NCBI GenBank assembly: GCA_903840415.1
Contig: CAIMFY010000102.1
Location: 1 to 64,000, forward strand
Source: an uncultured Opitutia bacterium
Lineage (GTDB): Bacteria > Verrucomicrobiota > Verrucomicrobiia > Opitutales > Opitutaceae
Direction of reading: 5' to 3'
Length of the DNA stretch: 64,000 nt
Under the pieces are notes generated by a model. The model had not been told where the DNA came from. It saw nothing but the letters and a program-made list of their open reading frames with translations, and made no database searches. Position numbers and translations under genes: made by a program. Of this stretch, positions 746 to 15,216 are shown piece after piece; positions within the stretch are counted from its first letter, which is position 1; each line of letters opens with the position of its first letter.

Positions 746-971
746 GCTGTTAAGTCCCTTTTTGACAAGCGCTTGAGATACACCATCACGCCGATCCCCG
801 CGACGACCATGACCCAAAAACACGTTTCGGATTTCGACTATGGAGTAGGTATGGGACTGGTGAGCAAATTTTTTGCCAGCCGTTCAGAGATGCCGCACCT
901 CCGGCACGAAGGCGACCAGCTGGCTGCCGGTGGGAAACCGACCGTTTACGGCTACGTGCTATGATCGAAGC

Positions 972-2270: not shown

Positions 2271-3484
2271 ACACCGCAATTCCTAGTCCATCGATCGAAG
2301 AATGGAAGGCTGGTCGTCTTAGCCGTGCCAGAAACATCGGGCGAACCCTCGCCGAGATTCCCGACAGCGTGTTCACAGGCCTTTCGGTGTCTGAAGCTGA
2401 GTGGGGCCAGTCTGACTGGATGAATCTTTCCCCTGGGTTCAGCCCGTCGGACGACACCTGTCAGGAGCTGTCTAAGCTGAGGAGTAAGACCGTTCTCGCG
2501 GACTTTGTGCTGCCCTGGCTCGGAACTTCCCATTTGGAGTTCGAAACAAACTGTGCGGTTTTGCGCAGCTTGGTCGACGTGGTACGGGTCGGATTAAAAT
2601 CCGACACAGCGTTAGCTGGCAGAGCGCAATCGGCCTCCGAAAGACTTCGCACGACTTGCATGATTCTGGCTCTCCCGGGTGACGTGGTGAATTTCAAACT
2701 CGCCAGCACGTTTCTCACTTCGTGTCAGGTGCGCTCCGAAGTCCTGCGGAGCCAAGGGAAAGCCTTTGATGCAGATTCGATACTGCGAACTGCCAACGGG
2801 AAGCTGACGTCAGCAGGGCAGATTTTCGGGAAGAAACACCTCTGGATTTATAGCCAGTTCAAATTGCGAGTTCCCACCGATCTGGATGGTTTCCGGAGAG
2901 CTGACCGGCTGGATGTTCCGAAGGTTCGTCACGTTGCCCCACGGCCTGCCAATTTTCGCCGACTGCTCGAGAGAATGGCCGAGCTAAAAAGGACCGACTA
3001 TCCGCTCTATCGCTTTCTGGTTCTGGTCGGCTGGTGTGGGTTGCGGGCGGAGGAGGCGCTTCACGCTCGTGTTAGCTGGTTGCTGGATTCATCTTTTCAC
3101 CCGCGATTGTGCGTCCAAGGGGAGGATGACTTTCTGCCCAAAAGGACGTGGCTGCGTCGCGCATTAATTTTACAGTCAGCATTCGACATCCTGCGAGGCC
3201 AGAACACCGGAAAGTTCTTGGTCGCGGACCAACGGTCCGAACGCTGGCGCGCTTATCAAGCCGCGCTCGACTTGTTGGAGGAGGTGGGCTTCGAGGATCG
3301 GAAGCTGGTGCATTACTGTCGTCGGATCTATTTTACGTCCGTGAGTCAGTCTCAGCCCGGCGGATTAGAGGAAGCGAGGGCGTCGGTGGGACACGCAGGG
3401 AAAGATGTCGGATTGGGGCACTACCTGCTCCACGAGTTTACCGAAGAGCATCTCAACCTCTGGATCACTGGACTTGATCGTTAG
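2267..3484 (+). CDS. Tyrosine recombinase / integrase family protein
   Basis: The 405-residue protein has a tyrosine recombinase catalytic half in its last 170 residues. GWCGLRAEEAL carries the first arginine. A basic segment PKRTWLRRA could hold the beta-hairpin lysine. HYCRR supplies HxxR, and GHAGKDVGLGHYL supplies the second histidine and a candidate nucleophilic tyrosine. The expected order and spacing are kept, so it may be active. It would cut and rejoin DNA at a specific site. Its ATG overlaps the stop of the preceding recombinase-like gene. It lies 75 bp left of the tRNA-Ala attachment repeat at 3559-3577 but outside the repeat-bounded island, so it probably belongs to a different element or an older insertion. 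The family is distant from XerC/D. Confidence 0.65.
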   Translation: MNTAIPSPSIEEWKAGRLSRARNIGRTLAEIPDSVFTGLSVSEAEWGQSDWMNLSPGFSPSDDTCQELSKLRSKTVLADFVLPWLGTSHLEFETNCAVLRSLVDVVRVGLKSDTALAGRAQSASERLRTTCMILALPGDVVNFKLASTFLTSCQVRSEVLRSQGKAFDADSILRTANGKLTSAGQIFGKKHLWIYSQFKLRVPTDLDGFRRADRLDVPKVRHVAPRPANFRRLLERMAELKRTDYPLYRFLVLVGWCGLRAEEALHARVSWLLDSSFHPRLCVQGEDDFLPKRTWLRRALILQSAFDILRGQNTGKFLVADQRSERWRAYQAALDLLEEVGFEDRKLVHYCRRIYFTSVSQSQPGGLEEARASVGHAGKDVGLGHYLLHEFTEEHLNLWITGLDR

Positions 3485-3530
3485 GCGATGTGAGGTCGCA
3501 TCAATGAATACGGTGTCTAGCGTATTCCGT

Positions 3531-3547
3531 CTCCCTCTAAGAGGGAG
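3531..3547. terminator. Short hairpin downstream of the recombinase pair
   Basis: A 7-bp perfect inverted repeat CTCCCTC-TAA-GAGGGAG lies 46 bp after the recombinase stop codon. It has no following T-run, so it is only a candidate terminator, or a structural element at the left side of the attachment repeat. Confidence 0.3.
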
Positions 3548-3558
3548 AATACTAGTGA

Positions 3559-3577
3559 AAGTGGTGGACCCTAGGAG
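3559..3577. repeat. Left attachment repeat (19 bp, tRNA-Ala 3' end fragment)
   Basis: AAGTGGTGGACCCTAGGAG is identical to 12635-12653. It contains the CCA end, discriminator and acceptor 3' strand of tRNA-Ala on the minus strand without the rest of the tRNA, so it is the duplicated crossover site. Confidence 0.85.
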
Positions 3578-3881
3578 CGTCCTACTTTTGAGAGGTAAGA
3601 CGGGCACCGTTTGCACGTTCGTTTGTCTGTTTTAAAACTCGCGTTAGACCCCACGGGCGCCCGGCCATTTGCCCCACGTTGGACGATCTCGGTGCGTGAG
3701 GGTCAAGACCGCGGCAACGGCTTGCGGGCCGCCTGCGCGAATCTAACGCCTCTGCTTGGCCTCGGCAACGAAGGCAGCGCGGCGTTGACCGGCTTAGAAG
3801 CACCTTCCTTTGTCGATTCGGTTTTGCCATGCTGGCGTGTTCCGTGACCAGCAACCAGCAACCTCAACAGCGGAGCAAACT
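3578..3881. other. Non-coding left end of the island
   Basis: About 300 bp between the left attachment repeat and the first island gene show no convincing gene. CGTTTGTCTG at 3620-3629 matches CGTTTGTCT at 12542-12550 beside the integrase end and could be an arm-type integrase site. A short tandem repeat (CCAGCAA twice, near 3848-3861) precedes the next gene. Confidence 0.45.
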
Positions 3882-4346
3882 ATGATTAAGATCGTGTTGG
3901 AAAAAGCCGAGACGAGCAGACCCCGTGCGCACGTCTTGTTGGTGACGGTGCTAAACGAAATCGCGGCAGACCCAACTAGACTCGCATGGGAGAGCTACCT
4001 TTTCGCCGAAACTCAGCCGTTAAGTGTTACGTCAAAGCGGGGGGAGATTCAAAAATTCGAGGGCGGTGTGGAGGACCACTTTCCGGAGCGTAGCGAGTTC
4101 ACGCGGTCGGTCGCCCAGGATTGGGCAAACAAACTAGGTGCGACACTGTCCGATTTTGAGCGGGTCGAGTTTCCGCTTGGTCGCAATCCGTTCCTGCCAT
4201 TTACCAACGTCGGCACGATCAATGGTGAGTTGGAAAAGATCGCGCAATCGACGTTGTCAGGCGACCTTCGCAAAAGCATCCGCGAGGCGCTCCGCATCGA
4301 TCCTTCAAGTCCGCGAAGCATCAACGAACGGCGAAATAGCGAGTGA
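3882..4346 (+). CDS. Hypothetical island protein
   Basis: This 154-residue soluble protein is the only rightward gene in the island and faces the leftward operon tail to tail. It starts MIKIVLEKAETSRPR and is rich in charged residues, with no signal peptide, membrane segment or recognised motif. GGAG at 3872-3875 precedes the ATG, so 3882 is preferred over an upstream in-frame start at 3810. An oppositely oriented gene at the far end of an integrated element is a common place for cargo such as defence or superinfection genes, but nothing in the sequence shows a function. Confidence 0.5.
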   Translation: MIKIVLEKAETSRPRAHVLLVTVLNEIAADPTRLAWESYLFAETQPLSVTSKRGEIQKFEGGVEDHFPERSEFTRSVAQDWANKLGATLSDFERVEFPLGRNPFLPFTNVGTINGELEKIAQSTLSGDLRKSIREALRIDPSSPRSINERRNSE

Positions 4347-4395
4347 CAAGATAACCGCGTCTGCGCCTCAAGTCCGATTCCCGCAACACGCTAGC

Positions 4396-4932
4396 CTATT
4401 CCACGCATCCGCGCGCCAGTTCATTCGCCGCACAAACAATTTCCCGCGCGAACCAATACGCCCAGGATTCGATTTGCCGGGCCGCGTCCTTAGGTGACGG
4501 CGCGAACACGCACGGCACGTCGAAACGCACCTCCAACGCTGCCAGCGTGGCAAGGACGGCCTTTGGTTTGACGTTGCTGTGGTAGTCGCCGGCTTCGATT
4601 TGCTCGCGCGAGCCGACAATCAAAAGCCGCTTGAATCGGTAGCCGCGGAGCCGGTGCAACTCGCGGAAAAATCTTTCCCGGTTCTCGCCGACAACGCAGC
4701 CGACAAGATCCCCGACGCTCTTGCGCTCAATCGAAAACGTTTCCTCGCCTCCGCTGAAACTGTAATCGCCAGTTGTCAGTATGCCGCGCTCCGATTGCAG
4801 CCGAGCGAACACAAGTGGCGTTTGCTCGCGCGAGTCTATGACAACGACCGGCCGCACGTCAGCGAGTTTCCCGAGCCCGCGCAGCGCCGGCAGCGGCTTG
4901 AAATCCTCGGAGACGACGGGAGATTGATTCAC
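4396..4932 (-). CDS. ERCC4-fold (XPF/MUS81-type) nuclease domain protein
   Basis: The protein, about 178 residues, is almost entirely one ERCC4 nuclease domain. VVVIDSREQTPL near residue 30, GDYS at about residue 55 and FSIERKSVGDLVGCV form the V/IDxRE...ERKxxxDL metal-binding active site of XPF/MUS81 nucleases. The family cuts branched or flapped DNA. In a small replicating element it may process recombination or replication intermediates, and similar single-domain genes occur in phages. It is the last gene of the leftward island operon. The start is uncertain: GTG at 4932 is used here, with an in-frame TTG at 4947. Confidence 0.8.
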   Translation of the reverse strand: MNQSPVVSEDFKPLPALRGLGKLADVRPVVVIDSREQTPLVFARLQSERGILTTGDYSFSGGEETFSIERKSVGDLVGCVVGENRERFFRELHRLRGYRFKRLLIVGSREQIEAGDYHSNVKPKAVLATLAALEVRFDVPCVFAPSPKDAARQIESWAYWFAREIVCAANELARGCVE

Positions 4933-5078
4933 GGAAGGGGAAACCAAAAAGGCGCCGGCCCTCGCCCATGACGGCGAAAACCGGCGCCCGATTCTCGCTA
5001 AACCACGGCGCGCTCAACCTCTCTGCGAAACTTCGCCGCCGTGAAAATATAGAATTGGTTTTGCGCGAGCGGAGCGCG

Positions 5079-5606
5079 TCAGCACTCCCCGCCAACGATG
5101 GAACGCAGCGAATTGCGCGCGTTTTCAAAATCGAAATTCGCGTAGCTCACGGCGCCGGCCACCTGCGCAAGTTTTCGATCAAGCGATTCGAGCGGCCCCG
5201 TGGATTCGACCGGCTCGCCGAGGTCAGCCGAGCGGGTTGCATCCTCCGCGATTATTTTTTCCCGAGCGGCCTCCAGCGAAGTGCGTGTCTCAGCGACGGC
5301 CGCTAAGAATTTGTCGCGACCGGCCGCAATACGTTCTGATTTTTGGGCGGCGATCATCCCTTGAAATTGGTTGACGGTCAGAGCGGCGGCCTCCGTTTGC
5401 GACAAGAGCAGCATTACCTTCAAGCAGCGCGCCGGCGTGGGGTCTGCCTGCATCTCGGCGCGGGCGGCGGCCAGAAGCGTGCCGTGCTCGATCGCAGGTG
5501 CACAAGCGCCGCGAAGTTTTTCGACCGATTTTTCAGCGGCGCGGAGATGGGCACGCCACTCTTGCAACTTTGGATTCTCGTCAAATAAGCGAGTGAGGAA
5601 CGACAT
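5079..5606 (-). CDS. Hypothetical coiled-coil-prone island protein
   Basis: This 175-residue protein begins MSFLTRLFDENPKLQEW and is mainly helical, with heptad-like Ala/Leu/Glu stretches (about 25-60 and 95-130). It has no catalytic motif, signal peptide or membrane span. It sits between the repeat-containing 124-residue protein and the ERCC4 nuclease and is co-directional with both. A structural or scaffolding role is possible but not shown. The 131-162 bp between it and the nuclease gene show no other convincing gene. Confidence 0.55.
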   Translation of the reverse strand: MSFLTRLFDENPKLQEWRAHLRAAEKSVEKLRGACAPAIEHGTLLAAARAEMQADPTPARCLKVMLLLSQTEAAALTVNQFQGMIAAQKSERIAAGRDKFLAAVAETRTSLEAAREKIIAEDATRSADLGEPVESTGPLESLDRKLAQVAGAVSYANFDFENARNSLRSIVGGEC

Positions 5607-5657
5607 TTTTTTTGTGGGTTGAGGTTGAACTGAACGGAAATTTTGAGCGAAGCGCGG

Positions 5658-6032
5658 TCAGTCGCGAACGATGCCTTTCGCGCGAAGGTCCGCGGAGTAG
5701 AGGTCCGGGCGCCCGCGCATTGTCATTTTGTGCGCTTCTATGCCGGACAACGACGGGTCAGCCCTACGCGCGGCTGCCACGGCCAAAAGATACGCGCCAC
5801 CGCCAGACGGAGCAGCACGCTCGGACTCGCTTGCGAGAATCACCGCAGCGCCGTCGGGCTCCGTCCGTGCCGCGTTCGTGTCGCGTCGGCGACTGATTCC
5901 CTTCTCCGAGAGATACGCCGCGTAAGCGGCACGGCCGGCAAGTGTGCTACGGACTCTTTCATGAGCGCTAAAGACACCAAGGGAGGCGTCTGCCGTGCGA
6001 GCTGCGGCGACAAGGGCAAGATAGGAGGTCAC
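5658..6032 (-). CDS. Small protein with an internal duplicated module
   Basis: The 124 residues contain two copies of a module of about 43 residues. The first runs from SYLALVAAARTADASL to AAYLSEKGI. The second runs from AYLLAVAAARRADPSLSG through EAHKMTMRGRPDLY to LRAKGI. An Ala/Ser/Arg-rich linker joins them. The GTG start overlaps the stop of the preceding gene (GTGA), implying coupling. No known family is recognised. Duplicated small modules suggest repeated contacts with a partner or with DNA, which is inference. Confidence 0.55.
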   Translation of the reverse strand: MTSYLALVAAARTADASLGVFSAHERVRSTLAGRAAYAAYLSEKGISRRRDTNAARTEPDGAAVILASESERAAPSGGGAYLLAVAAARRADPSLSGIEAHKMTMRGRPDLYSADLRAKGIVRD

Positions 6033-6517
6033 GATGAAATCCGTTTCATCGCCGCGATCTGCTCCGCGATTTGGGTGAGCATTGGGGATTGTGTCTTCAC
6101 GAGCTGTTCGAGCGCTTCGAGCTGTCGGCCGATTTCAGCGAGTCCGGCGCGGCGAAATTCCGCATCACCTGCCGCGGCGCCGGCGGCGCGATCCTCGGAG
6201 TTCGGGGCATCTCGTCCCGCAGCCATTGCGGAAGCATGAGCGAACGTCGAACGAAGTTGGTCGCGCTCGCCGCAGTTCAAAAGCGAAGCCTTGGCCTGGA
6301 TCGCGGAGAACGAACGGGCGCGCAGTTTGTCGAGATCCGTCGACGCGTAGAAGACGAGCGATTTTCCGAGCCGCCGCGGCGTCAATTCGCGGCTGGCGAG
6401 CAAACGCCCCACGTGAGTGGGCGTCACTAAGAGCCGCTTCGCGAGCTGCGTATTGCTTCTGAATCCTTCGGTGCCGGCTGGCGCGTCGGCGTCTTCGATG
6501 GGTATAACATGGTTCAT
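6029..6517 (-). CDS. Putative HTH DNA-binding protein
   Basis: The 162-residue protein has an N-terminal segment (about 20-60) reading NTQLAKRLLVTPTHVGRLLASRELTPRRLGKSLVFY. This looks like a MerR/excisionase-type helix-turn-helix followed by a wing-like strand. A long helical tail (120-162) rich in Glu/Gln/Leu could dimerise. The preceding gene ends 33 bp upstream and the following one overlaps by four bases. GTG at 6541 is an alternative start. Packaging accessory, repressor and partition-like roles are all possible. Confidence 0.55.
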   Translation of the reverse strand: MNHVIPIEDADAPAGTEGFRSNTQLAKRLLVTPTHVGRLLASRELTPRRLGKSLVFYASTDLDKLRARSFSAIQAKASLLNCGERDQLRSTFAHASAMAAGRDAPNSEDRAAGAAAGDAEFRRAGLAEIGRQLEALEQLVKTQSPMLTQIAEQIAAMKRISS

Positions 6518-6550
6518 GACATTGTTGCCGCGAGTGTCCACGGTCGCGCG

Positions 6551-7105
6551 TCATGCGTTCCCCGCGCGAGTCGGCTGCGGCGAAGTGACCGCTGCGGCGC
6601 CATCTTTCAGCCTCCGCAAAATCCAGTCGATTGCCGCCGCGTTCATTTCCTTGCATTGGATCGCGCCGCATCCCGCATATTTGTCTGGAAGCTCAAATTC
6701 CAGCTTCGCGCGCATGTCCGCCGTGAGCCCCTGCATCATGCCGGAGATCGCGGGTTCGATTTCAGCCATCGCGACATATCCGCCGCGTTTTTTGGCCGCC
6801 TCGAACTCGCTATCCTCGACTTGAATCCTGAGTCTGCGTTCGCGGAGTCGCCGCATTTCCGCGCTGTCTCGCCCGGGCCCGTGCTCCTCGTAAAAAGTGA
6901 GAAAAGCGGCGAGCGAAAACAGTCCTCGTCCGTTCGGTGCAGGCGCTCCCGGCATCGCCAGATATTTCTGCACCGTCGTTGATGAAACGCCGCTCTGAAA
7001 ACTGATCTGCCGTTTTGATAGCCAGTCTCCGCGGCCGATTAGACGGCGACGACCGGCTTTCTTTCGCCCGCTTTCGTGAGGTGATTTTCTTTTCTGGTTT
7101 TTCAT
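6551..7105 (-). CDS. Nu1/TerS-like small terminase subunit
   Basis: The layout of this 184-residue protein resembles phage lambda Nu1. A basic leader is followed by a helix-turn-helix (WLSKRQISFQSGVSSTTVQKYL, about 28-50), a short proline/glycine loop, and a charged helix RRLRERRLRIQVEDSEFEAAKK with a following GYVAMAEIEPAISGMMQGL segment. The last part matches the Nu1 helix bundle that follows the DNA-binding domain. Such subunits recognise pac or cos sites and load the large terminase. No large terminase is present in the island, which is what packaging-hijacking satellites do. The assignment is by architecture only; an unrelated DNA-binding protein remains possible. Confidence 0.55.
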   Translation of the reverse strand: MKNQKRKSPHESGRKKAGRRRLIGRGDWLSKRQISFQSGVSSTTVQKYLAMPGAPAPNGRGLFSLAAFLTFYEEHGPGRDSAEMRRLRERRLRIQVEDSEFEAAKKRGGYVAMAEIEPAISGMMQGLTADMRAKLEFELPDKYAGCGAIQCKEMNAAAIDWILRRLKDGAAAVTSPQPTRAGNA

Positions 7106-7229
7106 GGATGGATTTTTCGTTGCGTATTACTTTGGTTTTGGACGGCCCGCGAAAAAGCTCGTGGGGTCACTGGAAACCCGAGGAAAAAAACGACGTTTTT
7201 AAGAGAGTCCTCAATAGGGGTGGGTCAGC

Positions 7230-7243
7230 AGGTTACGTAACCT
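7230..7243. promoter_or_regulatory. Perfect 14-bp palindrome, operator-like
   Basis: AGGTTACGTAACCT is a perfect palindrome in the 137-bp gap between two leftward genes, overlapping the last stop codon upstream. Its size and symmetry fit a dimeric repressor site. It may divide the replication and packaging halves of the operon. Confidence 0.4.
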
Positions 7244-7950
7244 CACGGAATCCGTTTCGGATCGCGCAGTTCGTCGATGAAGCGTGCGATGGGATCGAAG
7301 TCTGTTAACAGGCGAGCGCGTTCGTTGAGCGACAAGCCGCCGACCGGAAGACGGCGCCTCCACTTAGCGAGCCAATCACAGAAGCGATTCACGACAACGA
7401 GATGCGAAGCAGCCTTCGGGAGAATCACGTCGCCCTCTACGATATCGTGCTGCTTGGCCGGATAGAGCGCGAGTGCCAGCAACCCAGAACGCATAAGGTT
7501 CGGAGCGCGGTCAAATGAGAAGACCGTTTGCTCCTCGTGGTGTCGGGCAAGTCGGATGAATCGCTCGGCGAGTTCTTCGGGAATCGCGGTCGCATAGTTC
7601 GAGTCATACCAAATCTGCCACGTCAAATCCTTGTGCCGGACAGCGCCGGGATCGGCGGGAACACCGCTCGCTCTTGCGTTGTTGGCGGCCTCGCGGGCGC
7701 GATTGCGAATGTCGAGCAGCCAAACCTTTTCAGAGATCAACAACCGGCCGGCCTCGTGCGCGTCACGGATGGCGCCCGCCGCGGTTACCTTGACTTGCTC
7801 GGCGGCTTCTTTCGCGGCGCGAGCGTGCCGCAGAATCGCAAACCGGTTTGGCGAGACGAGACGTGCGCCGGGTTGTCGCGTGCGTTTCGCTGGCGACGTT
7901 GCGGCAGCGACGGCGCCACGTTTCGGAGTTTTGTCGGCAGGTTTTTTCAT
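7243..7950 (-). CDS. Hypothetical island protein
   Basis: This 235-residue soluble protein has a basic Lys/Pro/Arg-rich N-terminal 30 residues. A long helix follows (about 40-100) containing AIRDAHEAGRLLISEK, then a mixed region with RLARHHEEQTVFSF. The pattern recalls phage-borne helical DNA-associated proteins, but no family is secure. It is co-directional with its neighbours, 17 bp after one and 137 bp before the TerS-like gene. The ATG at 7950 is followed by AAAAAA, like other starts in this operon. Confidence 0.5.
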   Translation of the reverse strand: MKKPADKTPKRGAVAAATSPAKRTRQPGARLVSPNRFAILRHARAAKEAAEQVKVTAAGAIRDAHEAGRLLISEKVWLLDIRNRAREAANNARASGVPADPGAVRHKDLTWQIWYDSNYATAIPEELAERFIRLARHHEEQTVFSFDRAPNLMRSGLLALALYPAKQHDIVEGDVILPKAASHLVVVNRFCDWLAKWRRRLPVGGLSLNERARLLTDFDPIARFIDELRDPKRIP

Positions 7951-7967
7951 GGAGTAGAGCGGCGCAA

Positions 7968-8264
7968 CTACGCGCCGGTTTTTTCGACGGCTACCTTGCG
8001 GAGCCTCAGCCCTGCCGTCGCGAGCAGCGGGCGTGCACGGCGGGCTGCGAGCCCGAGGTGAATCAGATCGAGCGCGGCGACGGCGCAGTCGGCCGGAACC
8101 ACGAAGCCGAGACTGCGGGCGCGTTTCTCAGAAGTGGGGAGGATGCTGTCATGGTCCGGCCCGTGGCGGTCGGAGATGAACGTCGGCGCGTTGTCGCCGT
8201 CGAGCGTGAGGTAGATGCGTTCTTGGATTTGGGTTTTCATGTTTCGAGCGGATTTATTTTTCAT
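7968..8264 (-). CDS. Hypothetical small island protein
   Basis: This 98-residue protein has no recognised family. The ATG at 8264 overlaps the stop of the preceding gene (ATGA). It sits in the context CTTCCCATCCATGAAAA, nearly identical to that of the preceding gene, which supports 8264 rather than the longer frame from 8309. The sequence mixes a strand-rich N-terminal part (RIYLTLDG) and a C-terminal Ala/Leu/Arg helix. Confidence 0.45.
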   Translation of the reverse strand: MKNKSARNMKTQIQERIYLTLDGDNAPTFISDRHGPDHDSILPTSEKRARSLGFVVPADCAVAALDLIHLGLAARRARPLLATAGLRLRKVAVEKTGA

Positions 8265-8584
8265 GGATGGGAAGGCGTCTTGACGGTCTGGATCGCGCAT
8301 CGCCGGCAATCCCGCGGCGATGTGAACGACATATCGTCGAGCGGTAAGAACGGCCGTATGTGAATATCGCCAACCGAGCAGTCACACGTGGCGCCACGTG
8401 TCTTTAAGTAGCGAAGCGTTCCGGTGACGTTAGCACCCATGGCGTTTAGAACCTCGATGCTTCCTGAAAAACCATCGTGCTTGCATTTGGGAAACAGCTC
8501 GGTGAGCCGGTCGTAAAATTGGCTCCAACCTTGGCGATCTCGGGTGATGATGGGGCGATATATTCTTGTGCGATTTGTTTTCAT
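8261..8584 (-). CDS. DUF2695-like small protein
   Basis: The 107-residue protein contains CKHDGFSGSIEVLNAMGANV followed by TLRYLKTRGATCDCSVGDI. The spacing of the first Cys/His pair and the late CDC motif resembles the DUF2695 family of small proteins of unknown function. Two further cysteines (DCRRC) lie near the C-terminus, so metal binding is plausible. It is the first gene after the origin-like region and overlaps the following gene by four bases. Confidence 0.5.
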   Translation of the reverse strand: MKTNRTRIYRPIITRDRQGWSQFYDRLTELFPKCKHDGFSGSIEVLNAMGANVTGTLRYLKTRGATCDCSVGDIHIRPFLPLDDMSFTSPRDCRRCAIQTVKTPSHP

Positions 8585-8617
8585 AGATGGGAAGTTGTCT
8601 TGTTGAGTCTCGGCGGC

Positions 8618-8827
8618 ACCCGCACCCCCGCGCCTATATATATATAGGCGCTGCGGGTATGCGGGTATGCGGTGCCATGCGGGTTCATTTGCGGGTGTTT
8701 GCGGGTGTGCGGGTAATTGGTCCTAAAATGCTTTCGCCCAAAGATTCGGGGGAAAGCGGGTGATAATTTTGTGGCGCTTCATTCCGTCGAATTTTCTACC
8801 CGCAGTCCGTTCCGAGCATTTGCGGGT
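8618..8827. other. Origin-like repeat region
   Basis: GCGGGT hexamers occur at 8653, 8661, 8679, 8691, 8701 and 8709, mostly 8-12 bp apart, with one more at 8822 and inverted copies (ACCCGC) at 8618 and 8798. They lie beside a perfect AT-rich palindrome and run into the 3' end of the helicase gene. Iterons plus an easily melted segment next to a helicase gene is the usual plan of a plasmid or satellite origin. Function is inferred. Confidence 0.55.
8630..8651. repeat. Perfect 22-bp palindrome with alternating TA core
   Basis: The arm GCGCC and its complement GGCGC flank an alternating TA run of 12 bases, so the whole 22 bp is self-complementary. It is the most AT-rich spot in the neighbourhood and could be the melting or cruciform element of an origin. 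Confidence 0.6.
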
Positions 8828-10210
8828 AGTTTCGATGGCTGAAATCAGGTCCGAAAACCGGAGGCTTGAACGCTCCCCGAATACGTCGGCGGCGAGTTCG
8901 CGGAGTGCTTCGACTTCGGCCGATTCCTTCGCGCTCCCCTTCGTTTGTTCAAGGGAGAGGTGCATCTCGGCTTTGCTATCCCACGAGAAACGCGGCCCGT
9001 CTTTTTCAAAGATTGGCGCGTGCCGTGCGCTGGCGGTGAAGATTGTCGTCACGCCGTCCGCGTCTTTGACTAGCCGGAGGTCAGTTTCGCATTTTCGCTC
9101 AAGCTGCGATCCGAGATGCCCGCGGGATTTCGTCGGCTGGTTTGCCGGCGCTGGGTTGAGATGCAATACGGCAACGAGGCTGCAATCAAAGTCAGTGGCA
9201 GCGGATTCCAAATCGGTCACGAACGGGTTGCATTCTTTCGCGTCGTTAGTGTCGCTCACGAAGTCCGCCACGCCGTCGAGCAACACGAGATAAACGCCAC
9301 CGTGCGCGCGTTTCAGCTCGCGAAGGAGTCGCGGCAGCATCCGGCGCAGTTGCTCGGCAGAAACTCCTTTTACGCCGTAGGAAAAGAGCCAGGGCGGCAA
9401 TTGCTCGGTGTCGGCCCGGCGCTTCGCCACAGCGATCAATGCCTCGTGGTCCTTTGGCGATTGCTCAGTGTCGAGATGCAGGACGGCGTGCGCGTGTTGG
9501 TTATGCGCCCGAAATCCGAGCGAGTCGCCGCGTGGGTTTGGCCCCGCGATGATGGCACCAAGGATCGCGCCGCCGGCGGCCGACTTGCCGCTTTTCTGAA
9601 GCGCCGTCAGCACGCCGAGATTGCCGCGGTTGAAAACCGGGACGTCGCGAAGATAGATCGTCGGCAGTTCTTCTCTGAGGACGCGGCCGAACCCGGCCCG
9701 ACGCGATGCCCACTCCGCGATTGCCGACGGTGCCGAGTTCGTGTCCGCCAGCGAGTGCAAGCGTTCCTCGCTCGTGGCGAGAAAGTCATCGATGCCACCC
9801 GAAAACCCGTAGGCGTCTTCAACGATCCCGGTCGCGGAGCGAATCACGGCGCGGAGCAGCGACTGCTCACGCACTTTGTCGATGAAGTAACCCGCCTGCG
9901 CCGTCGTCGGGATGCGCGAGGAAACTTGCGTCAGAAACGCGTAGCCGCCGATGGCGTCGAGTTGCTTCGACGTTTTCAATTCCTCTGCCACAACCGAAAC
10001 GTCCATCGGCGCCTGCCGGTTGTAGAGTTCGAGGATCCGCTCAAAGATGATTCCGTGCGCCGCGACGTAAAATGACTCCGGCCGGATGCGCGCTTCAAGG
10101 CAGCGTGAAATCACGTCCGCACCGTCGAGCAGACAGCACGAGAGCAGGTATTCCTCCGCCTCGATGCTGTGCGGCAGCGGGCGGCCTGCGCCGGCGTTGG
10201 ACGCGCTCAC
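8723..10210 (-). CDS. Replicative helicase: DnaB N-domain fused to RepA-like ATPase
   Basis: The protein has 495 residues. The first 110 match the DnaB N-terminal domain (PHSIEAEEYLLSCCLLDG, then DAIGGYAFLTQV). Residues about 195-400 form a RecA-fold ATPase of the RepA/AAA_25 type with Walker A LQKSGKSA, Walker B VLLDGVADF and the downstream HLNPAPANQ...RGHLGSQLERK region seen in mobilisable-element helicases. A C-terminal winged-helix-like tail follows. It would unwind DNA at the island origin just downstream. I prefer the GTG at 10210, which overlaps the previous stop (GTGA), to the ATG at 10240. It probably makes replication of the excised island partly independent of host DnaB. Confidence 0.85.
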   Translation of the reverse strand: MSASNAGAGRPLPHSIEAEEYLLSCCLLDGADVISRCLEARIRPESFYVAAHGIIFERILELYNRQAPMDVSVVAEELKTSKQLDAIGGYAFLTQVSSRIPTTAQAGYFIDKVREQSLLRAVIRSATGIVEDAYGFSGGIDDFLATSEERLHSLADTNSAPSAIAEWASRRAGFGRVLREELPTIYLRDVPVFNRGNLGVLTALQKSGKSAAGGAILGAIIAGPNPRGDSLGFRAHNQHAHAVLHLDTEQSPKDHEALIAVAKRRADTEQLPPWLFSYGVKGVSAEQLRRMLPRLLRELKRAHGGVYLVLLDGVADFVSDTNDAKECNPFVTDLESAATDFDCSLVAVLHLNPAPANQPTKSRGHLGSQLERKCETDLRLVKDADGVTTIFTASARHAPIFEKDGPRFSWDSKAEMHLSLEQTKGSAKESAEVEALRELAADVFGERSSLRFSDLISAIETTRKCSERTAGRKFDGMKRHKIITRFPPNLWAKAF

Positions 10211-10347
10211 TTGCCACCCCCACGCAAGTAACGTTGCCATGCGGCGAAGTCGCGTCGGCGCAGCGCGGCCTCAAAAACCGCGACACGCTTTGCGATCTTC
10301 TGCCGGCCGCTCCCGCTGATTCGTCGCCAGCGAAATGCCGTCTTCAC
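10207..10347 (-). CDS. 46-residue basic protein
   Basis: The short frame begins GTG and encodes VKTAFRWRRISGSGRQKI, ending in a WQRYLRGGGK tail; about a third of its residues are Arg or Lys. Its start overlaps the upstream stop (GTGA at 10344-10347) and its stop overlaps the helicase GTG (10207-10210). This double coupling is the main support that it is translated. It is probably nucleic-acid binding. Confidence 0.45.
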   Translation of the reverse strand: MKTAFRWRRISGSGRQKIAKRVAVFEAALRRRDFAAWQRYLRGGGK

Positions 10348-10544
10348 GAGGCACGCTCGCTTTTCTTTGCGGTGCGGTCGCCGGCCAGTGATTTGCCGCT
10401 CGGCTCGGTGAATCGGTGCGCGCCGCGTTCGCGCTGCGCGATCTGCGCATAGTGGGCGGCCGTCCGGTGTTGGGCGTCGAGGTGATTGACGCGAGAGGCG
10501 GCGGCGTCGGAGTCTGCGGCGGCGACTGGTTGCGGCGTGCTCAT
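10344..10544 (-). CDS. Hypothetical 66-residue protein
   Basis: It begins MSTPQPVAAADSDAAASR and is hydrophilic with a basic C-terminus (GDRTAKKSERAS). It starts 2 bp after the excisionase-like gene and its stop overlaps the next GTG, so position supports it more than sequence. No family is recognised. Confidence 0.45.
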   Translation of the reverse strand: MSTPQPVAAADSDAAASRVNHLDAQHRTAAHYAQIAQRERGAHRFTEPSGKSLAGDRTAKKSERAS

Positions 10545-10546
10545 GG

Positions 10547-10786
10547 TCAAACCAATTTGAGCAGCTCGGCGCCAAGGATGCGGAACGGGCGGCCCTGCCC
10601 GCGGATGCGACCGGATCGGACTGCCTGACGAATGGTCGAGGGTTGAACGCGACAAAGTTTCGCGGCTTCGTTCGTCAAATAGATCGCGCCGGAGAGAATC
10701 TGCTCGCGCGGCGCAGCCGATTTGTCGCTCGGAATAACTGCGATTGAACCGGGGTCGGCTGGCAATGGTGACGGGTTGGCGTTCAT
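10547..10786 (-). CDS. Excisionase-like small HTH protein
   Basis: This 79-residue protein has a disordered N-terminal 35 residues and then YLTNEAAKLCRVQPSTIRQAVRSGRIRGQGRPFRI. This is the helix-turn-helix plus wing of the MerR/excisionase (helix_turn_helix_17) family. Such proteins bend attachment-site DNA and direct the integrase towards excision, or act as regulators. Its place two genes after the integrase fits. ATG at 10786 is chosen; an in-frame codon at 10795 is possible. Confidence 0.7.
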   Translation of the reverse strand: MNANPSPLPADPGSIAVIPSDKSAAPREQILSGAIYLTNEAAKLCRVQPSTIRQAVRSGRIRGQGRPFRILGAELLKLV

Positions 10787-10854
10787 TAACGCCACAAGAC
10801 CGTCCCGCCTCCGCGCGTAAACCGCTTTTAATCCACCTGACTAGCCAGATGGAA

Positions 10855-11328
10855 TTATTTCGCTATTTCGCCGGAGAAGCCTGCGCAGAAAGCCGAATAC
10901 CCGATTGTCGAGATTCCGCTTTTCTCGCGCGTCTCACTCCAAAGTTGTTTCTTGTTCGGAGGAGTGGGCAATTTCCACTCGTCGAGAATCTTCCGCGCGG
11001 TCTCCATGAACTTTTCCTTCAATATGCGTTTACGAGCGACCTGCTTCGCTTGGCCGCGTTTCAATCCGCCGCGCTTCACCTGAAAATCCGCCAGATACAT
11101 TGACACGGCCCCAGCCTCGAATGCCGCGGATGCCGCTGCGTCCCAGTTGCCCGCAGCCCAAGCCCGATCAAAGTTATCGCAGTGTTGCAGACAGACGTTC
11201 GCAAACGACTTTTCAACTGCGCCGGAAAATAGGGGGAGGCGAAGATTCTGCGTCACGGTCGTGCGCGCGGCATCGATGCGAATTTGCGCCTGCGTCTTCT
11301 GCTGTGCCTGTGGGCGCCGTTTATTCAC
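10855..11328 (-). CDS. Hypothetical island protein
   Basis: The 157-residue protein starts at a GTG that overlaps the integrase stop (GTGAATAA at 11321-11328). It is rich in Lys/Arg and helices, with a compact block FDRAWAAGNWDAAASAAFEAGAVSMYLADFQ (about 53-83) and a basic helix after it. There is no known family. Coupling to the integrase suggests control of integration or excision, but this is inference. Confidence 0.5.
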   Translation of the reverse strand: MNKRRPQAQQKTQAQIRIDAARTTVTQNLRLPLFSGAVEKSFANVCLQHCDNFDRAWAAGNWDAAASAAFEAGAVSMYLADFQVKRGGLKRGQAKQVARKRILKEKFMETARKILDEWKLPTPPNKKQLWSETREKSGISTIGYSAFCAGFSGEIAK

Positions 11329-12538
11329 TGCCGGCCTTTCCCTTTGGCGGAGTGATGGCAAAATACGCGTTCCCGTCCGGCTGCGTCGCGATCCCGCGGT
11401 AAGTGTCCCAAAGCAGTTGCGCGCTTTTGTGGCACAAGACGACGGAGGTTGCCGCGGGGTTCTTGTAAGCGGCGACGTGATACGACGCGAATCCGTGGCG
11501 CAGGCAGTTGTGCGGGTGCGGCACGTCGGCGCGGGTGAATGCGTCTGCCTTCGCTTCGGCATACTGCCGCTGCGTCATCGCCCACTCTTCCGGCCGCGAC
11601 CACTTGAGCCACGCGTGCAAGTTCTTCGGCAGTCCGTCGAGAAACTGATCCTTTCGCGTCTTTATCTTGGCCGCGGGAATGCGCAGCCCGTCCTTCTGAA
11701 TCTCGGCGGCAACGATCTGACCGGCCGTGTCATTGCGCAGCCCGGCGAACGCTTCTAGCGCAAGCCGTCCGAGCATTTCCCGCCGCTCCTGTGAGATAGG
11801 CGAGCCGTCTTCATTCGTGGAGCTTTTTGAGAAAAGAGACTTCGATTGCGCGATGCTCAAAATCTCGACTTCCTTCGCTGCGACCTTTGGCGGCTTCATG
11901 CCGGCGAATGGTGTGCTGCTGATTCTTTTCGATTCGAGCAACCAGTTGAACAACGCACGGCAACGAGCAAACCGACTGCGCCGGGTGTGTTCCGATCCGA
12001 CCTGCGCGGCCATGAACGCGGCGATCTCTTCGCCCGTCACGTCTCCTACGTTCCGCTCTCCCATCGCTGCCTCTAGGCGGTCAAAAATAGGGCCGTAGTG
12101 GGAAATGGAGGCGGCGTCTACGCCCTCCGCTGTTTTTGCTGCCGTGTAAAGGGCCACGGCCTCGCGAACGGTGAGCGGCGAGACCGCCACGGCCTTGTTC
12201 CTCTCCCAACAAGCCGCGACGGCCTCTAGGTTGGCGTCGGCACCGATGAGCGCGCGGAATGCACGCCACTCCCGAGCCTCGTCCGTATTGAGCCGCAGGG
12301 CGGCGAGCCCGTCCCGCTTCGTGTCGCCCGCGAGCGCCTTGGCAAACTCGATTTGCTTTTCCTGCGTCTGAAACGTCTTCGTCTTCCGCTGGCCATCGAT
12401 GCGCCATTGCACGCCATACGGGCGATCCGGCCGATGGGCGAACGCGATCAGCCGGATGCCGCGCGGCGGCGCCCATTTCGCGGACCTTGCCGCGGTTCCG
12501 CCGTTGGATTCCTCGCCGGTTTGCCCTCGTTTGTTCAT
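11321..12538 (-). CDS. int: Tyrosine recombinase integrase of the island
   Basis: This 405-residue phage-type integrase inserts the island at tRNA-Ala. A core-binding domain (about 115-220, with SRFARCRALFNWLLES) precedes a catalytic domain carrying FAGLRNDTA (first Arg), HNCLRHGFASYH (HxxR) and LCHKSAQLLWDTYRG (second His and nucleophilic Tyr). AKIKTRKDQ may hold the catalytic Lys. Glutamate is usual after the first Arg; here it reads R-N-D. The gene starts about 100 bp from the tRNA, the normal place for an integrase using that tRNA as attachment site. CGTTTGT repeats overlapping and upstream of the start are candidate arm sites and may let the protein repress itself. Confidence 0.9.
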   Translation of the reverse strand: MNKRGQTGEESNGGTAARSAKWAPPRGIRLIAFAHRPDRPYGVQWRIDGQRKTKTFQTQEKQIEFAKALAGDTKRDGLAALRLNTDEAREWRAFRALIGADANLEAVAACWERNKAVAVSPLTVREAVALYTAAKTAEGVDAASISHYGPIFDRLEAAMGERNVGDVTGEEIAAFMAAQVGSEHTRRSRFARCRALFNWLLESKRISSTPFAGMKPPKVAAKEVEILSIAQSKSLFSKSSTNEDGSPISQERREMLGRLALEAFAGLRNDTAGQIVAAEIQKDGLRIPAAKIKTRKDQFLDGLPKNLHAWLKWSRPEEWAMTQRQYAEAKADAFTRADVPHPHNCLRHGFASYHVAAYKNPAATSVVLCHKSAQLLWDTYRGIATQPDGNAYFAITPPKGKAGSE

Positions 12539-12567
12539 TCCCGTTTGTCTCGGTTTGTCGTTTGTAT
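12529..12567. repeat. CGTTTGT repeats beside integrase start (arm-site candidates)
   Basis: CGTTTGT occurs at 12529, 12542 and 12559, with a GGTTTGT variant at 12552, all in the same direction and overlapping the integrase start codon. A matching CGTTTGTCTG is at 3620 near the opposite end, as expected for integrase arm-binding sites. Confidence 0.4.
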
Positions 12568-12634
12568 GTCAAATCAACAAACAATGACTCAGCCTTGACT
12601 AACATTCTACCTCTGAAACCGGATTTACCGGGCG

Positions 12635-12653
12635 AAGTGGTGGACCCTAGGAG
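12635..12653. repeat. Right attachment repeat (19 bp) within tRNA-Ala
   Basis: It is identical to 3559-3577. It covers the CCA end, acceptor 3' strand and the edge of the T stem of tRNA-Ala, so insertion kept the tRNA whole. Confidence 0.85.
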
Positions 12654-12713
12654 GTTCGAACTCCTGACCTCCTCAATGCCATTGAGGCGCTCTACCAACT
12701 GAGCTAAGAGCCC
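12638..12713 (-). tRNA. tRNA-Ala(GGC)
   Basis: The minus strand folds into a full 76-nt cloverleaf. The acceptor GGGCTCT pairs with AGGGTCC (two G-T pairs). The D stem is GCTC/GAGC. The anticodon stem CCTCA/TGAGG encloses loop ATGGCAT with anticodon GGC, and the T stem AGGAG/CTCCT encloses TTCGAAC. CCA is encoded. Its 3' end is the integration site of the 9.1-kb island. Confidence 0.96.
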
Positions 12714-12851
12714 TTCGCACTTGCGAGAGGTGAGGAAAATCGAAGTTCTCTTGACGAACGCAAGGACTTTTTGGTGCGGCGCCGGGTGATAGGATTTGAG
12801 GTCAGGCGGAGTTTGTCCCCGTCGTTTCGGTCATAAAACCCGACCTGCGAT

Positions 12852-13619
12852 CTAGGGCGCCAATACCGGCGGATCCTCGGCGGGCGGCGGCGTCAGACTG
12901 GCGGCATAGGCCCGGGCGAGGACGGCGCGCCAATGGGCGTCCTCAATTTCCCGGCGCCGCACTGCACGATATTCCATCTCACCGGCGTAGAAGATGAATG
13001 CAAACAGCACGGCCGTGAGCCATGTGTGAAAGAGGAAAAGCGCGCCAAGGGCACCAATCACTGCCAAAACTTTGCCCACACTCGCGGCCCAAAATGTCGC
13101 ACGCAAATACTGCATCCGAGTCGCCAGCAGCGCGCGGAGGATGCGGCCACCATCCATCGGGAAGACCGGGACCAGGTTGAAGCAGCCCATGATCAGGTTC
13201 CAGTGCAGGAGCAGTTGGGCGAAGCCCGTCGCATCAGCAGTAAAATCTGACAACGGCCAGCCAGCCGGGAACCCCACCGCGATCCACAGCACAGCCACGA
13301 TGAGGAAATTCACCGCCGGCCCGGCGAGCGTAATGAGCAGCTCGCGCGATGGTTGCCGCGGGATGTCGTCAAACTCCGCCATGCCGCCGATGGGCATCAG
13401 CAGGATGCGGCGCACGCCGATGCCAAAATGCATCGCCGTAAATGAATGCCCCAGTTCGTGCAGCACGACACAGGTGAAAAACGCAACGAGCGTCCCGACG
13501 CCCCAAAGCAGCCCCGACCAGCCATCGTCCTGCCAGCCTTCCTGCGCGGCGAAGGCGAGGAGCAGGAAAAACGAGAAATGCACCGCGAGCTGGATGCCGC
13601 GGATGCGGAAAAGGTTCAT
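12852..13619 (-). CDS. Site-2 protease family zinc metalloprotease (M50)
   Basis: This 255-residue integral membrane protein has about six hydrophobic segments. VLHELGHSFTAMHF carries the HExxH zinc motif, and NLVPVFPMDGGRILRALL carries the second N/DG motif whose Asp completes the zinc site. It is the short SpoIVFB-like form, with no PDZ or CBS domain visible. Such enzymes cut substrates inside the membrane, often releasing regulators. ATG at 13619 is chosen because the hydrophobic N-terminus starts there; ATG at 13634 is possible. It is divergent from the NtrC-type regulator across about 90 bp. Confidence 0.85.
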   Translation of the reverse strand: MNLFRIRGIQLAVHFSFFLLLAFAAQEGWQDDGWSGLLWGVGTLVAFFTCVVLHELGHSFTAMHFGIGVRRILLMPIGGMAEFDDIPRQPSRELLITLAGPAVNFLIVAVLWIAVGFPAGWPLSDFTADATGFAQLLLHWNLIMGCFNLVPVFPMDGGRILRALLATRMQYLRATFWAASVGKVLAVIGALGALFLFHTWLTAVLFAFIFYAGEMEYRAVRRREIEDAHWRAVLARAYAASLTPPPAEDPPVLAP

Positions 13620-13634
13620 TGACCAACTTAGCAT

Positions 13635-13691
13635 AGAGTGAAAGTGAAAGTGAGAGGGAAACCGAGCGTCGGCAATCCACACTTTCACTCT
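13635..13691. promoter_or_regulatory. Inverted purine/pyrimidine repeat between divergent genes
   Basis: AGAGTGAAAGTG (13635-13646) and its exact complement CACTTTCACTCT (13680-13691) flank a 33-bp spacer. GTGAAA-type repeats continue outside both arms. The element fills the divergent promoter region and could bind a dimeric regulator or form a hairpin. Confidence 0.4.
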
Positions 13692-13712
13692 CCCTTTCTC
13701 TTTCACTCTTTC

Positions 13713-15179
13713 ATGTCTGATCCCGTTGCCAAACCTCCCTTGATTCTCGTGGTCGATGACGATGCCGAGATTCGGTATTCGCTGACCCGCGTGCTGTCGT
13801 CGCGCAAATATCAAGTCATCGAGGCGCCGAGTGGCGAGCAGGGCGTTGCGATGGTCAAGAAAGGGCCGCCGCCGGATCTGGTGTTTCTCGACGTGCGGAT
13901 GGGCGGGATGGGTGGGATCGAGGCGCTTCAGCACATGCGGTCTGCAAATCCGAAGCTCCTCATCGTGTTGATGACGGCGTTCGGCACCGCGCAGACCGCG
14001 ATCGAGGCGATGAAATACGGGGCCTTCGATTACGTGATGAAACCCTTCGATCCGGCGAAGGTGCTGTCGCTCGTCGATAACGCGCTCAAGGCCCACGCCG
14101 ATCTGCGGGCCGTCGGCGATTACAAGCCGACAATCAACGCCGAGGATTACCGCGAGGGCATCGTCGGCAGCTCCACGTCAATGCAGGAAGTGTTCAAGAC
14201 CATCGGCCAGGTAACAGCGAGTGATGTGACCGTGATGATCACGGGCGAGAGTGGCACGGGCAAGGAACTGGTCGCGCGGTCGATTTGGAAACACAGCCAC
14301 CGCGCCACAAAGCCTTTCGTCGCCGTCAACTGCGCCGCGATTCCCGACAATTTGATCGAGAGCGAACTCTTCGGCCACGAAAAGGGATCGTTCACCGGCG
14401 CGACCGCCCAGCGGATCGGCAAGTTCGAGCTTTGCGATGCCGGGACGATCTTCCTCGATGAAATCGGCGACATGGCGCTCGCAACGCAGACAAAAATCTT
14501 GCGCGTGCTCCAGGCCGGCGAGATCCAGCGCGTCGGCGGCACTGAGACGATCAAAGTAGACGTCCGCATCCTCGCGGCGACAAACAAGGATCTGGAGGAG
14601 ATGGTGAAGGTGAAGTTGTTCCGCGAAGATCTTTATTACCGGCTCAACGTCGTGCGGATCAGAATGCCGCCCCTGCGGGAGCGCGGCGACGATGTGCCGC
14701 AGATCGTGGATTTTTGCCTGCAAAATCTGGTGAAGCAGAAGAAGGCGCGCGTCACCAAAGTATCGCCCGAGGCCATGACCGTGCTCACCCGCCATACTTG
14801 GCCGGGTAACGTGCGTGAACTCGAAAATGTGATCTACCGCAGCGCGGTCATTGCACAGGGCGATGCGATCCTTGTGAAGGATTTGCCGGCCGAGATTCGC
14901 GGCGGCGCTGGCGAAACCAGCGCGACTCTGCCGATAAGCGGAAGTAGCGAATCCGTGGGCGCACCGGCGGAGGCGCCGCCGCGTGCGGCGCTCACCCTCG
15001 AGGCCGCGTTCGATTTTCTGTTTGCCGAGCTCGCGACGAGCGGTGAGCCGATGCTGCCCCGGGTCGAGCAGGCGTTTGTCTCGCGCGCGTTGGCGGCTGA
15101 AAAGTCCGACGACGCGAAGGTCGCGAAACAGCTCGGCCTAACCAAGGCCGCACTGCAAAAGCGCCGCAGGGGCAGCTGA
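13713..15179 (+). CDS. NtrC-family sigma-54-dependent response regulator
   Basis: The protein has 488 residues in three parts. A receiver domain (about 9-125) has acidic residues DDD at 15-17, phospho-acceptor Asp60 in LVFLDVR and Lys110. An AAA+ activator domain (about 150-385) has Walker A GESGTGKE and the sigma-54 contact loop GSFTGA in place of the common [18 protein letters not shown] marks its end. A Fis-like DNA-binding tail ends the protein ([16 protein letters not shown]). It activates sigma-54 promoters after phosphorylation. No sensor kinase gene is adjacent. Confidence 0.93.
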
Positions 15180-15216
15180 GTTTTCCTTGCGCCTCGTTTG
15201 CACTGAATTTTCGCCC

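Follow-up and report, generated by a model that had tools for sequence, protein, structure and literature searches.

A 9.1-kb insertion at a tRNA-Ala gene of an uncultured Opitutaceae bacterium carries a DnaB-N/AAA_25 replication protein and a TerS homologue: a probable PICI-like phage satellite

Results

Ends of the unit and its target

The window, a stretch of 64,000 nucleotides that starts at base 1 of its contig, holds the 19-bp repeat AAGTGGTGGACCCTAGGAG at 3559–3577 and, in the same orientation, at 12635–12653 (both on the plus strand). The repeat search of the window found the copies to be identical, and they are the only exact copies in the 4.9-Mb assembly; by chance, 5.5e-7 copies would be expected per 64 kb, counting both strands. 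From repeat start to repeat start, the unit measures 9,076 bp. The right copy covers the 3′ end, including CCA, of an intact tRNA-Ala (GGC) gene found by ARAGORN (12638–12713, minus strand), which is the integration target and is identical to the same-genus copy at 76/76 bases. The empty site is present in a same-genus genome, where similarity begins exactly at 12635. Both the position of the repeat at the CCA end of an intact tRNA-Ala and the empty-site comparison that the original prediction had called for are thereby confirmed, and the data support a site-specific insertion of 9.1 kb at tRNA-Ala with precise ends. The exact circular junction had no match in viral contigs.

The precise ends that had been proposed hold for this one unit and not for the whole insertion, which is a tandem array. 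The DNA to the left of 3559 is another element rather than ancestral chromosome, and the repeat copy at 3559–3577 is a middle att copy on the border between the two. In the genome itself, the left flank of the chromosome is found on a different contig, behind a third att copy of altered sequence; the 9.1-kb unit is therefore stacked beside an older element at tRNA-Ala, and a junction of the island with the chromosome at its left end was rejected. The older element has a G+C content of 0.559, as compared to 0.602 for the unit. Its two overlapping ORFs at 873–3484 (873–2270 and 2267–3484, plus strand) we take, from their motifs, to be tyrosine-recombinase-like; both are without a PHROG match and without a meaningful Pfam match. 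A PF00589 fragment is also located in the older element.

Gene content

All listed ORFs of the island lie on the minus strand, except that at 3810–4346. The tyrosine recombinase (integrase; 11321–12538) matches phrog_1 (1.1e-13), whereas Pfam gave no match to an integrase domain up to E 0.5. When aligned, it shares conserved R, LRH, H and Y motif positions with four of five relatives. The next ORF, at 10855–11321 (minus), is an uncertain gene formed by the C-terminal part of the 10855–11562 ORF; it was not picked by the coding score and has no family above chance. An HTH_17 excisionase/AlpA-like protein (10547–10795, minus) matches PF12728 at 3e-6 (27.8 bits, cut-off 27) and TIGR01764 at 0.0016, under that model's cut-off; it may be the excisionase, a regulator or both. 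The replication protein (8723–10240, minus) and a putative origin (8618–8714) follow. Beyond them lie a small, uncertain ORF (8261–8584, minus; not picked by the coding score, no family above cut-off), a small protein (7968–8309, minus; coding score 23.4) with no family in Pfam or PHROGs, and a 235-residue protein (7243–7950, minus; coding score 37.4) with sub-threshold similarity to prophage proteins. Identification of the latter as the prophage protein found upstream of TerS was rejected, since the best E was 0.013 and iterating the search gained no further members. The homologue of the small terminase, TerS (6551–7105, minus), matches phrog_57 at 3.1e-7 and has no Pfam match. A 170-residue HTH-like/coiled-coil protein (6029–6541, minus; coding score 34.8) reaches HTH_17 at E 0.14 only, and is followed by a 175-residue protein (5079–5606, minus; coding score 32.7). 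The protein at 4396–4947 (minus) has an ERCC4/Hef-type nuclease domain (PF02732 2.3e-11, above cut-off; NF010337 3.4e-12, under that model's cut-off). The one ORF on the plus strand (3810–4346) encodes 178 residues and has a coding score of 20.8. We regard this score as supportive rather than decisive, as it missed an M50 peptidase gene and the ORF at 2267–3484.

No structural or large-terminase gene was found in the island ORFs with Pfam, a TerL profile and, for 10 of the ORFs, PHROGs. The adjacent integrase, the excisionase-like protein (just above the cut-off) and the absence of structural genes thus agree with what had been read from the letters alone. No known interference gene was found in the island. 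PADLOC gave no match better than E 0.015; together with NCBIfam, it added no function beyond ERCC4, DnaB-N and the weak matches to XerC/D and an excisionase. The integrase, the 235-residue protein, TerS and the ERCC4 protein have no relatives in the viral-contig scans. Seven island proteins besides TerS have no relative among the loci compared (designated by L numbers below).

The replication protein

The protein described originally as a private replication helicase can be specified further, as a chimera. Its N-terminal domain is a DnaB domain of host type (residues about 20–170; PF00772 6.3e-23) and is joined to an AAA_25 ATPase (PF13481 2.9e-7), and the gene lies beside an origin-like region with iterons. 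Over 158 positions, the N-terminal domain is 76.6% identical to the DnaB of the host itself. In DnaB, this domain mediates the interaction with DnaG, according to PMC2761005. No primase gene or domain was found in the island. The N-terminal modules of AAA_25 relatives include Prim-Pol (L158) and Toprim (L166 above cut-off, L163 just under), and DnaB-N serves as the module in the island, L121, L155 and L169. L155 is a viral contig with TerL. L121, the closest chimera-bearing island (tRNA-Gly, 23-bp repeats), shares the integrase and the replication gene with our island and does not share TerS, which the profile used did not find there. Further AAA_25 relatives (26–34% identity) occur in eight plasmid records of Bacteroidales genera. 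The DnaB tree was built without L056, which gave no match, and L169, whose match was short. As 19 of its 36 inner branches are open, it does not establish that the domain was captured separately. The predicted model of the chimera has a mean pLDDT of 49.9; its Foldseek matches are DnaB chains with TM about 0.25, which we do not count as evidence for the C-terminal fold, and a phmmer search with the C-terminal part returned no solved structure.

The origin-like region

The putative origin is located directly 3′ of the replication gene. Seven ACCCGCA iterons surround the AT-rich palindrome GCGCCTATATATATATAGGCGC (8630–8651), six on one side and one, inverted, on the opposite side. Seven of the 19 copies of ACCCGCA in the window fall in this region, a count reached by 0/300 block shuffles; the palindrome was reached by 0/500. 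The same iteron/AT-hairpin layout follows 11 of 15 related replication genes, as compared to 6 of 694 control ORFs, under a criterion written once the sequences had been inspected and with L163 (no sequence past the stop) and L156 (duplicate of L155) left out. L155, L165, L167 and L169 failed the criterion; a hairpin is visible by eye in L167 and L169. Among the six control hits, one duplicates the gene of the positive L158 and another duplicates the L160 hairpin. The L160 hairpin, with its C-run/G-run stem, could be a terminator. A separate 7-mer test used shuffles of 2-base blocks (300 per locus, 15 loci). In six loci, no more than one shuffle reached the observed count; in five loci two to eight did, and in four 32–300 did (L121 99, L155 300, L165 45, L169 32). 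As 99/300 shuffles reach its count, the iterons of L121 are regarded as degenerate, and its origin rests on a 6-mer count and a palindrome (reached by 15/500 shuffles). The layout also occurs behind replication genes in loci that contain genes of phages or prophages (L158/L056 and L161). Since it does, and since L155 has the DnaB-N/AAA_25 fusion, neither feature marks satellites.

TerS and its partner

TerS matches were found in 18 of 322 genomes of the order, the own genome included. We fetched 20 of the 25 match places outside the own genome, and 17 of these 20 loci have a TerL of the GpA type. Ten of the 20 loci supplied the sequences for the TerL profile; seven of the other ten have TerL. 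By Pfam, GpA_ATPase is the next ORF after TerS in eight of ten scanned. In L067, a helicase and TerS lie directly before TerL. The island TerS is only 18–29% identical to the others, and its alignment with prophage TerS spans the HTH and continues through the C-terminal region, which suggests that the packaging role has been kept. Against the PDB, the TerS profile gave E 0.04 or weaker, with two terminase small subunits at 0.19 and 0.46, and tblastn found no TerS in phage records. The Nu1/TerS-like protein of the original prediction is thus supported, in an island where the TerL profile, Pfam and PHROGs detect no TerL. The helper prophage sought elsewhere in the genome was not found: PF05876 and phrog_2, the two families used, gave no TerL in the own genome, and the L067 TerL protein as query gave no match there.

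Discussion

We propose that the 9.1-kb unit is a PICI-like phage satellite of Opitutaceae, which inserted into the 3′ end of tRNA-Ala next to an older element and uses a chimeric replicon that docks the host primase. We give this reading a probability of roughly 0.58. Upon induction, the integrase and the HTH protein would excise the island as a circle. The chimeric ATPase would load at the iterons, the hairpin region would open, and the host-like DnaB N-terminal domain would recruit the host DnaG. TerS would then redirect the GpA-type TerL of a helper phage to package the satellite. Of the satellite plan first suggested, the tRNA-Ala integration and TerS stand; the satellite reading itself we infer, no helper TerL (PF05876, phrog_2) and no exact circular junction having come to light in the genome and the viral contigs, respectively.

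For the satellite we counted the exact ends, the empty site, TerS homologue loci with GpA-type TerL next to an island lacking TerL, the location of the listed ORFs on one strand (apart from 3810–4346), iterons around an AT-rich palindrome 3′ of the replication gene, priming-type N-terminal modules in AAA_25 relatives, and the part that the DnaB N-terminal domain plays in the DnaG interaction of DnaB. Against it we counted the lack of a helper TerL in the genome (PF05876, phrog_2), L121 without TerS, the origin layout in prophage loci, the fusion in the TerL-bearing L155, the lack of primase and interference genes, the small size of 9.1 kb, and a TerS that is only 18–29% identical and finds a PDB terminase at E 0.19 at best. 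An unlikely alternative, in our view, is a reduced prophage, whose ancestor had an int–rep–ori–TerS early region and lost TerL and the late genes, leaving a fossil or an element that only integrates and replicates. Within the taxonomic order, TerS and the AAA_25 replication gene are each found in loci that contain prophage genes, and L067 shows helicase and TerS directly before TerL; however, the island has precise ends with identical repeats, its main genes have uninterrupted reading frames, most of them coding by the imperfect score, and the profiles used detect no late-gene remnant.

We consider it rather improbable that the unit is a plasmid-like integrative element, with an int, xis, rep and ori core, TerS as cargo or as a re-used DNA-binding regulator, and transfer by transformation or general transduction. 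The shared integrase and replication gene of the TerS-free L121 and the Bacteroidales plasmid relatives speak for such an element, whereas the alignment with prophage TerS from HTH to C-terminal region speaks for packaging. That the repeat and the gene cluster are a coincidence, with no mobile unit, can be dismissed almost entirely: it is refuted by the same-genus empty site, only 5.5e-7 chance copies are expected in the window, and no point supporting it was found.

The satellite reading sets the island among known systems with clear differences. As in PICIs, it has att repeats, its own integrase and site-specific integration, and Pfam, the TerL profile and PHROGs (10 ORFs) detected neither structural nor lytic genes. 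As compared to the Gram-negative PICI lineage of PMC6092414, it has a DnaB-N/AAA_25 chimera and not a primase-rep gene, the replication module expected of a PICI. It is smaller (9,076 bp, typical PICI size ~12–15 kb), and no PICI-specific genes were detected in it. The one HTH_17 protein, just over the cut-off, may be the master regulator (stl, alpA or merR type in PICIs), the excisionase or both. A PICI att site is never used by prophages; here, tRNA-Ala is also occupied by the older element. The iterons that flank the AT-rich palindrome correspond to the PICI origin described in that paper, as a sequence layout only; in the island, the AT core forms a palindrome, with the iterons split six to one. 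The PICMIs of Vibrionaceae (PMC10803314) are likewise small, with an integrase, an AlpA-type HTH protein, a replication gene and short direct repeats. Their prototype has 6,110 bp and no terS homologue identified in it, they insert at fis, and their model requires a DUF3987/DUF5906 primase and accepts PF12728. Our island is located at tRNA-Ala, has terS and lacks that primase, which places it outside the PICMI definition. Within the same order, prophages that carry a GpA-type TerL (among L054–L073) share the TerS family with the island, and one of them (L056/L158) has an AAA_25 replication protein with the same origin layout. Unlike them, the island has no TerL, and no late genes were found; the large terminase, portal and capsid genes of a complete prophage were not detected with the Pfam, PHROGs and TerL profiles.

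New here is the apparent fusion, read from sequence, that joins a DnaB N-terminal domain of host type with an AAA_25 ATPase; a region with iterons and an AT hairpin that resembles an origin comes after it. We suggest tentatively, and with less than even confidence, that islands and phages of Verrucomicrobiota share one replicon, consisting of the AAA_25 ATPase, the iteron/AT-hairpin origin and a swappable N-terminal priming module, which in some islands would be a copy of the DnaB N-terminal domain of the host, held close to the host sequence, so that the element captures the host primase and need not encode its own. If so, any member of the family that carries TerS would represent a new type of satellite and, to our knowledge, the first described in Verrucomicrobiota; the titles and abstract openings of the literature searched contained no paper about satellites in this phylum. 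The primase of the PICI type would have been swapped for a piece of the host helicase already recognised by the host primase. Such replisome mimicry would be testable, and it suggests why these elements would be bound to one host family. An AAA_25 gene followed immediately by iterons and a palindromic AT core would offer an origin signature for finding more islands and prophages. The RSF1010 RepA/oriV system may share with the island a hexameric RecA-fold helicase and an origin with iterons and hairpins; unlike the island, it uses its own primase and iteron-binding protein.

Integration site and gene content

The island is bounded by an exact 19-bp repeat (att) at 3559–3577 and 12635–12653 and is 9,076 bp long. 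An intact tRNA-Ala(GGC) gene (12638–12713, minus strand) has its 3′ end within the right copy. The repeat and its position at the tRNA end, both taken from the original prediction, are real; the 4.9-Mb assembly holds these two exact copies and no more, with 5.5e-7 chance copies expected per 64 kb. Codon scoring, with 28 window ORFs as the training set, supports as coding the integrase, HTH_17, replication protein, TerS (small terminase homologue) and ERCC4 genes, a 178-aa plus-strand ORF and the genes for the 113-, 235-, 170- and 175-aa proteins. The 124-aa ORF at 5658–6032 scores low, and 10855–11562 and 8261–8584 were not selected; the score is imperfect, and the M50 peptidase gene and 2267–3484 escaped it as well.

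The integrase matches PHROG 1 and has no match in Pfam. Matches (E 0.001 or better) occur in 118 of the 322 genomes of the order, its own included. The closest outside its own genome is in G019 (52% over residues 23–276, at a contig start), followed by G016 (39% over residues 19–402); neither TerS nor an AAA_25 gene is seen at these two loci. Relatives of the integrase adjoin tRNA-Val, tRNA-Pro and tRNA-Ala genes in L099, L100 and L101, with no TerS or AAA_25 gene within the fetched stretches, the L099 stretch being truncated by the start of its contig.

The predicted ends were compared with G001 (locus L022), the sole same-genus genome among the relatives, whose site lacks the island. There, the tRNA-Ala is followed by an M50 peptidase gene, whose window counterpart matches PF02163, and directly preceded by two genes that we take, from their sequences, to be exbD-like and tonB-like. 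Similarity to the window starts exactly at 12635, and the 76-base tRNAs are identical. In the island's own genome, the left-flank genes are best matched close to where contig C97 ends (L031; 74% and 70% identity). After the tonB-like gene, C97 carries ...TTTGAAATTGGTGGACCCTGCTAGGAGG..., an old, altered att copy whose core has three additional bases; beyond it lies unrelated DNA of 48% G+C up to the contig end. The window starts at base 1 of contig C102, and we infer the C97–C102 junction from the empty site. With the altered copy on C97, the middle copy at 3559 and the copy in the tRNA, the tRNA thus carries three att copies. The first two enclose an older element, broken by an assembly gap and visible at 1–3558, with a G+C content of 55.9% as compared to 60.2% for the island. 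The island is the tRNA-proximal unit of this tandem and, if accretion followed its usual order, would be the younger one. Between the altered and middle att copies (window 347–3484 and L031 9446–9873), the older element carries a PF00589 fragment on one strand and, on the other, a pair of overlapping recombinase-like genes for which neither Pfam nor PHROGs gave a meaningful match; its G+C is low to either side of the gap.

Replication protein and origin-like region

The domains of the predicted private replication helicase (8723–10240, minus strand) are DnaB-N (6.3e-23) and AAA_25 (2.9e-7), with no DnaB C-terminal domain in Pfam up to E 0.5. In contigs of 84,980 species, it matches 19 loci. 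Only L121, from the Verrucomicrobiia MAG VER2, matches over the whole length (57%, residues 19–501); in the other 18, the best segment lies within residues 3–173 (54–78%). The N-terminal part has matches in 53 of 54 relatives' genomes (E 1e-20 or better); identity is highest with the DnaB of its own host (78%) and falls to 31%. The DnaB-type domain of the island is 76.6% identical to its own host's DnaB and 65.1% to L121, and that of L121 is 75.3% identical to DnaB from the same MAG. In the DnaB tree, both fall inside a 19-row clade (97/87) of mostly host-family DnaB, with an unsettled inner order. The C-terminal parts of the two proteins are 54% identical.

The C-terminal part has relatives in 13 of the 322 genomes of the order, counting its own; two of the 13 match only above E 1e-4. 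In a phylum sample of 387 genomes, overlapping the 322, 6 have such a relative. The N-terminal modules of these relatives are Prim-Pol (L158), Toprim (L166, with L163 just below the cut-off), BT4734-like_N (L164) and DnaB-N (L155 and L169); none was recognised in L157, L159, L160, L161, L162, L165 and L168, and the scan left out L167. L160 has no AAA_25 match, and in L157, L158 and L159 it falls short of the Pfam cut-off; all four were included on similarity to the island protein. L155, a viral contig, carries a large terminase (phrog_979, 8.5e-7) together with a DnaB-N/AAA_25 fusion.

The L121 island lies between tRNA-Gly(CCC) (7738–7811) and a 23-bp copy of the 3′ tRNA end (18438–18460). The order is integrase, an HTH-like ORF (a visual assignment, with no match in Pfam or PHROGs), the chimeric gene, degenerate iterons and a near-identical palindrome, GCGCCTATATAGATAGGCGC; TerS was not detected. 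ORFs in 7738–18460 include, by eye, collagen-like repeat proteins. A second C-terminal relative in the island's own genome (L157) also lies beside a tRNA-Gly(CCC), with an integrase (phrog_1, 3.9e-9), an 80-aa protein and an AAA_25-type gene that is without DnaB-N and interrupted by the contig end. This second island-like locus (13988–18308) has an iteron/hairpin region with ACGCCCC and GGCCATATATGTATGGCC.

Directly 3′ of the island replication gene are seven ACCCGCA iterons (7 of the 19 copies in 64 kb), six on one side of GCGCCTATATATATATAGGCGC and one inverted on the other. No shuffle reached the iteron count (0/300) or the palindrome (0/500). Within 200 nt downstream, an AT-core hairpin together with a recurring 6-mer, a criterion fixed after inspection of the sequences, is found for 11 of 15 AAA_25-set genes and for 6 of 694 control ORFs; two of these six coincide with features of positives. 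A less tailored 7-mer test gives weaker support: the count was reached in no more than 1 of 300 shuffles for six of the 15 loci and in 32 or more for four, including L121. PMC6092414 places PICI origins directly downstream of rep, where an AT-rich region lies between two sets of iterons, and describes this layout as common to all PICIs identified there and to no other known replicon. Here the layout also occurs in phage-gene loci, namely L158/L056 (TerS and TerL, the large terminase) and L161 (TerL of phrog_2, a large-terminase family). The layout therefore backs the island's replicon and does not, alone, say satellite.

TerS and the satellite reading

The island TerS (6551–7105, minus strand) matches PHROG 57, terminase small subunit (3.1e-7), and has matches in 18 of 322 order genomes, own included (E 0.001 or better). 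Its alignment runs from the HTH to the C-terminal region, at 18–29% identity to the others. Twenty of the 25 match places outside its own genome were fetched, ten of which supplied a TerL profile. TerL is present in 17 of the 20 stretches (7 of the 10 outside the profile), on the opposite strand in L065, L070 and L071; the profile found none in the fetched stretches of L055, L057 and L066. The Nu1/TerS-like assignment is supported by the PHROG match and by homologues mostly accompanied by TerL. At 12 of the 20 loci, TerS is followed on the same strand within 1.5 kb by an ORF 300 aa or longer; ten of these were scanned, giving eight GpA_ATPase, one Roc-COR-TIR (L056) and one Fic (L066).

A large terminase inside the island would speak against a satellite, and the TerL profile found none there. 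The helper prophage looked for elsewhere in the genome did not emerge: neither PF05876 (positive in 3 of 54 genomes searched and 3 of 14 control genomes) nor phrog_2 (positive in 11 of 14 control genomes) detected a TerL.

Integration, the gene set, the domain fusion and the origin-like DNA are directly observed. The island would be excised and would replicate using host DnaG, which the DnaB-type domain would dock; in DnaB, the N-terminal domain serves DnaG interaction, according to PMC2761005. Packaging may use TerS with a helper's TerL. Because no helper was found, the sister island L121 lacks a detected TerS and the replicon is common with phages, we make no firm satellite claim. Judging by titles and abstract openings, none of the papers that searches on verrucomicrobial satellites and opitutal prophages turned up is about such an element.

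Some TerS loci hold additional genes. In L066 (9706–19900), the TerS homologue is followed by the Fic gene and type III-B CRISPR genes (Cmr2, Cmr3 and RAMPs). The Roc-COR-TIR gene of L056 (4942–10442) lies between TerS and TerL, and L068 (9576–18297) and L069 (1261–10616) have TerS–TerL gaps of 6–7 kb with other genes. In L056, L068 and L069, the TerS–TerL interval looks as if it were a cargo or defence spot.
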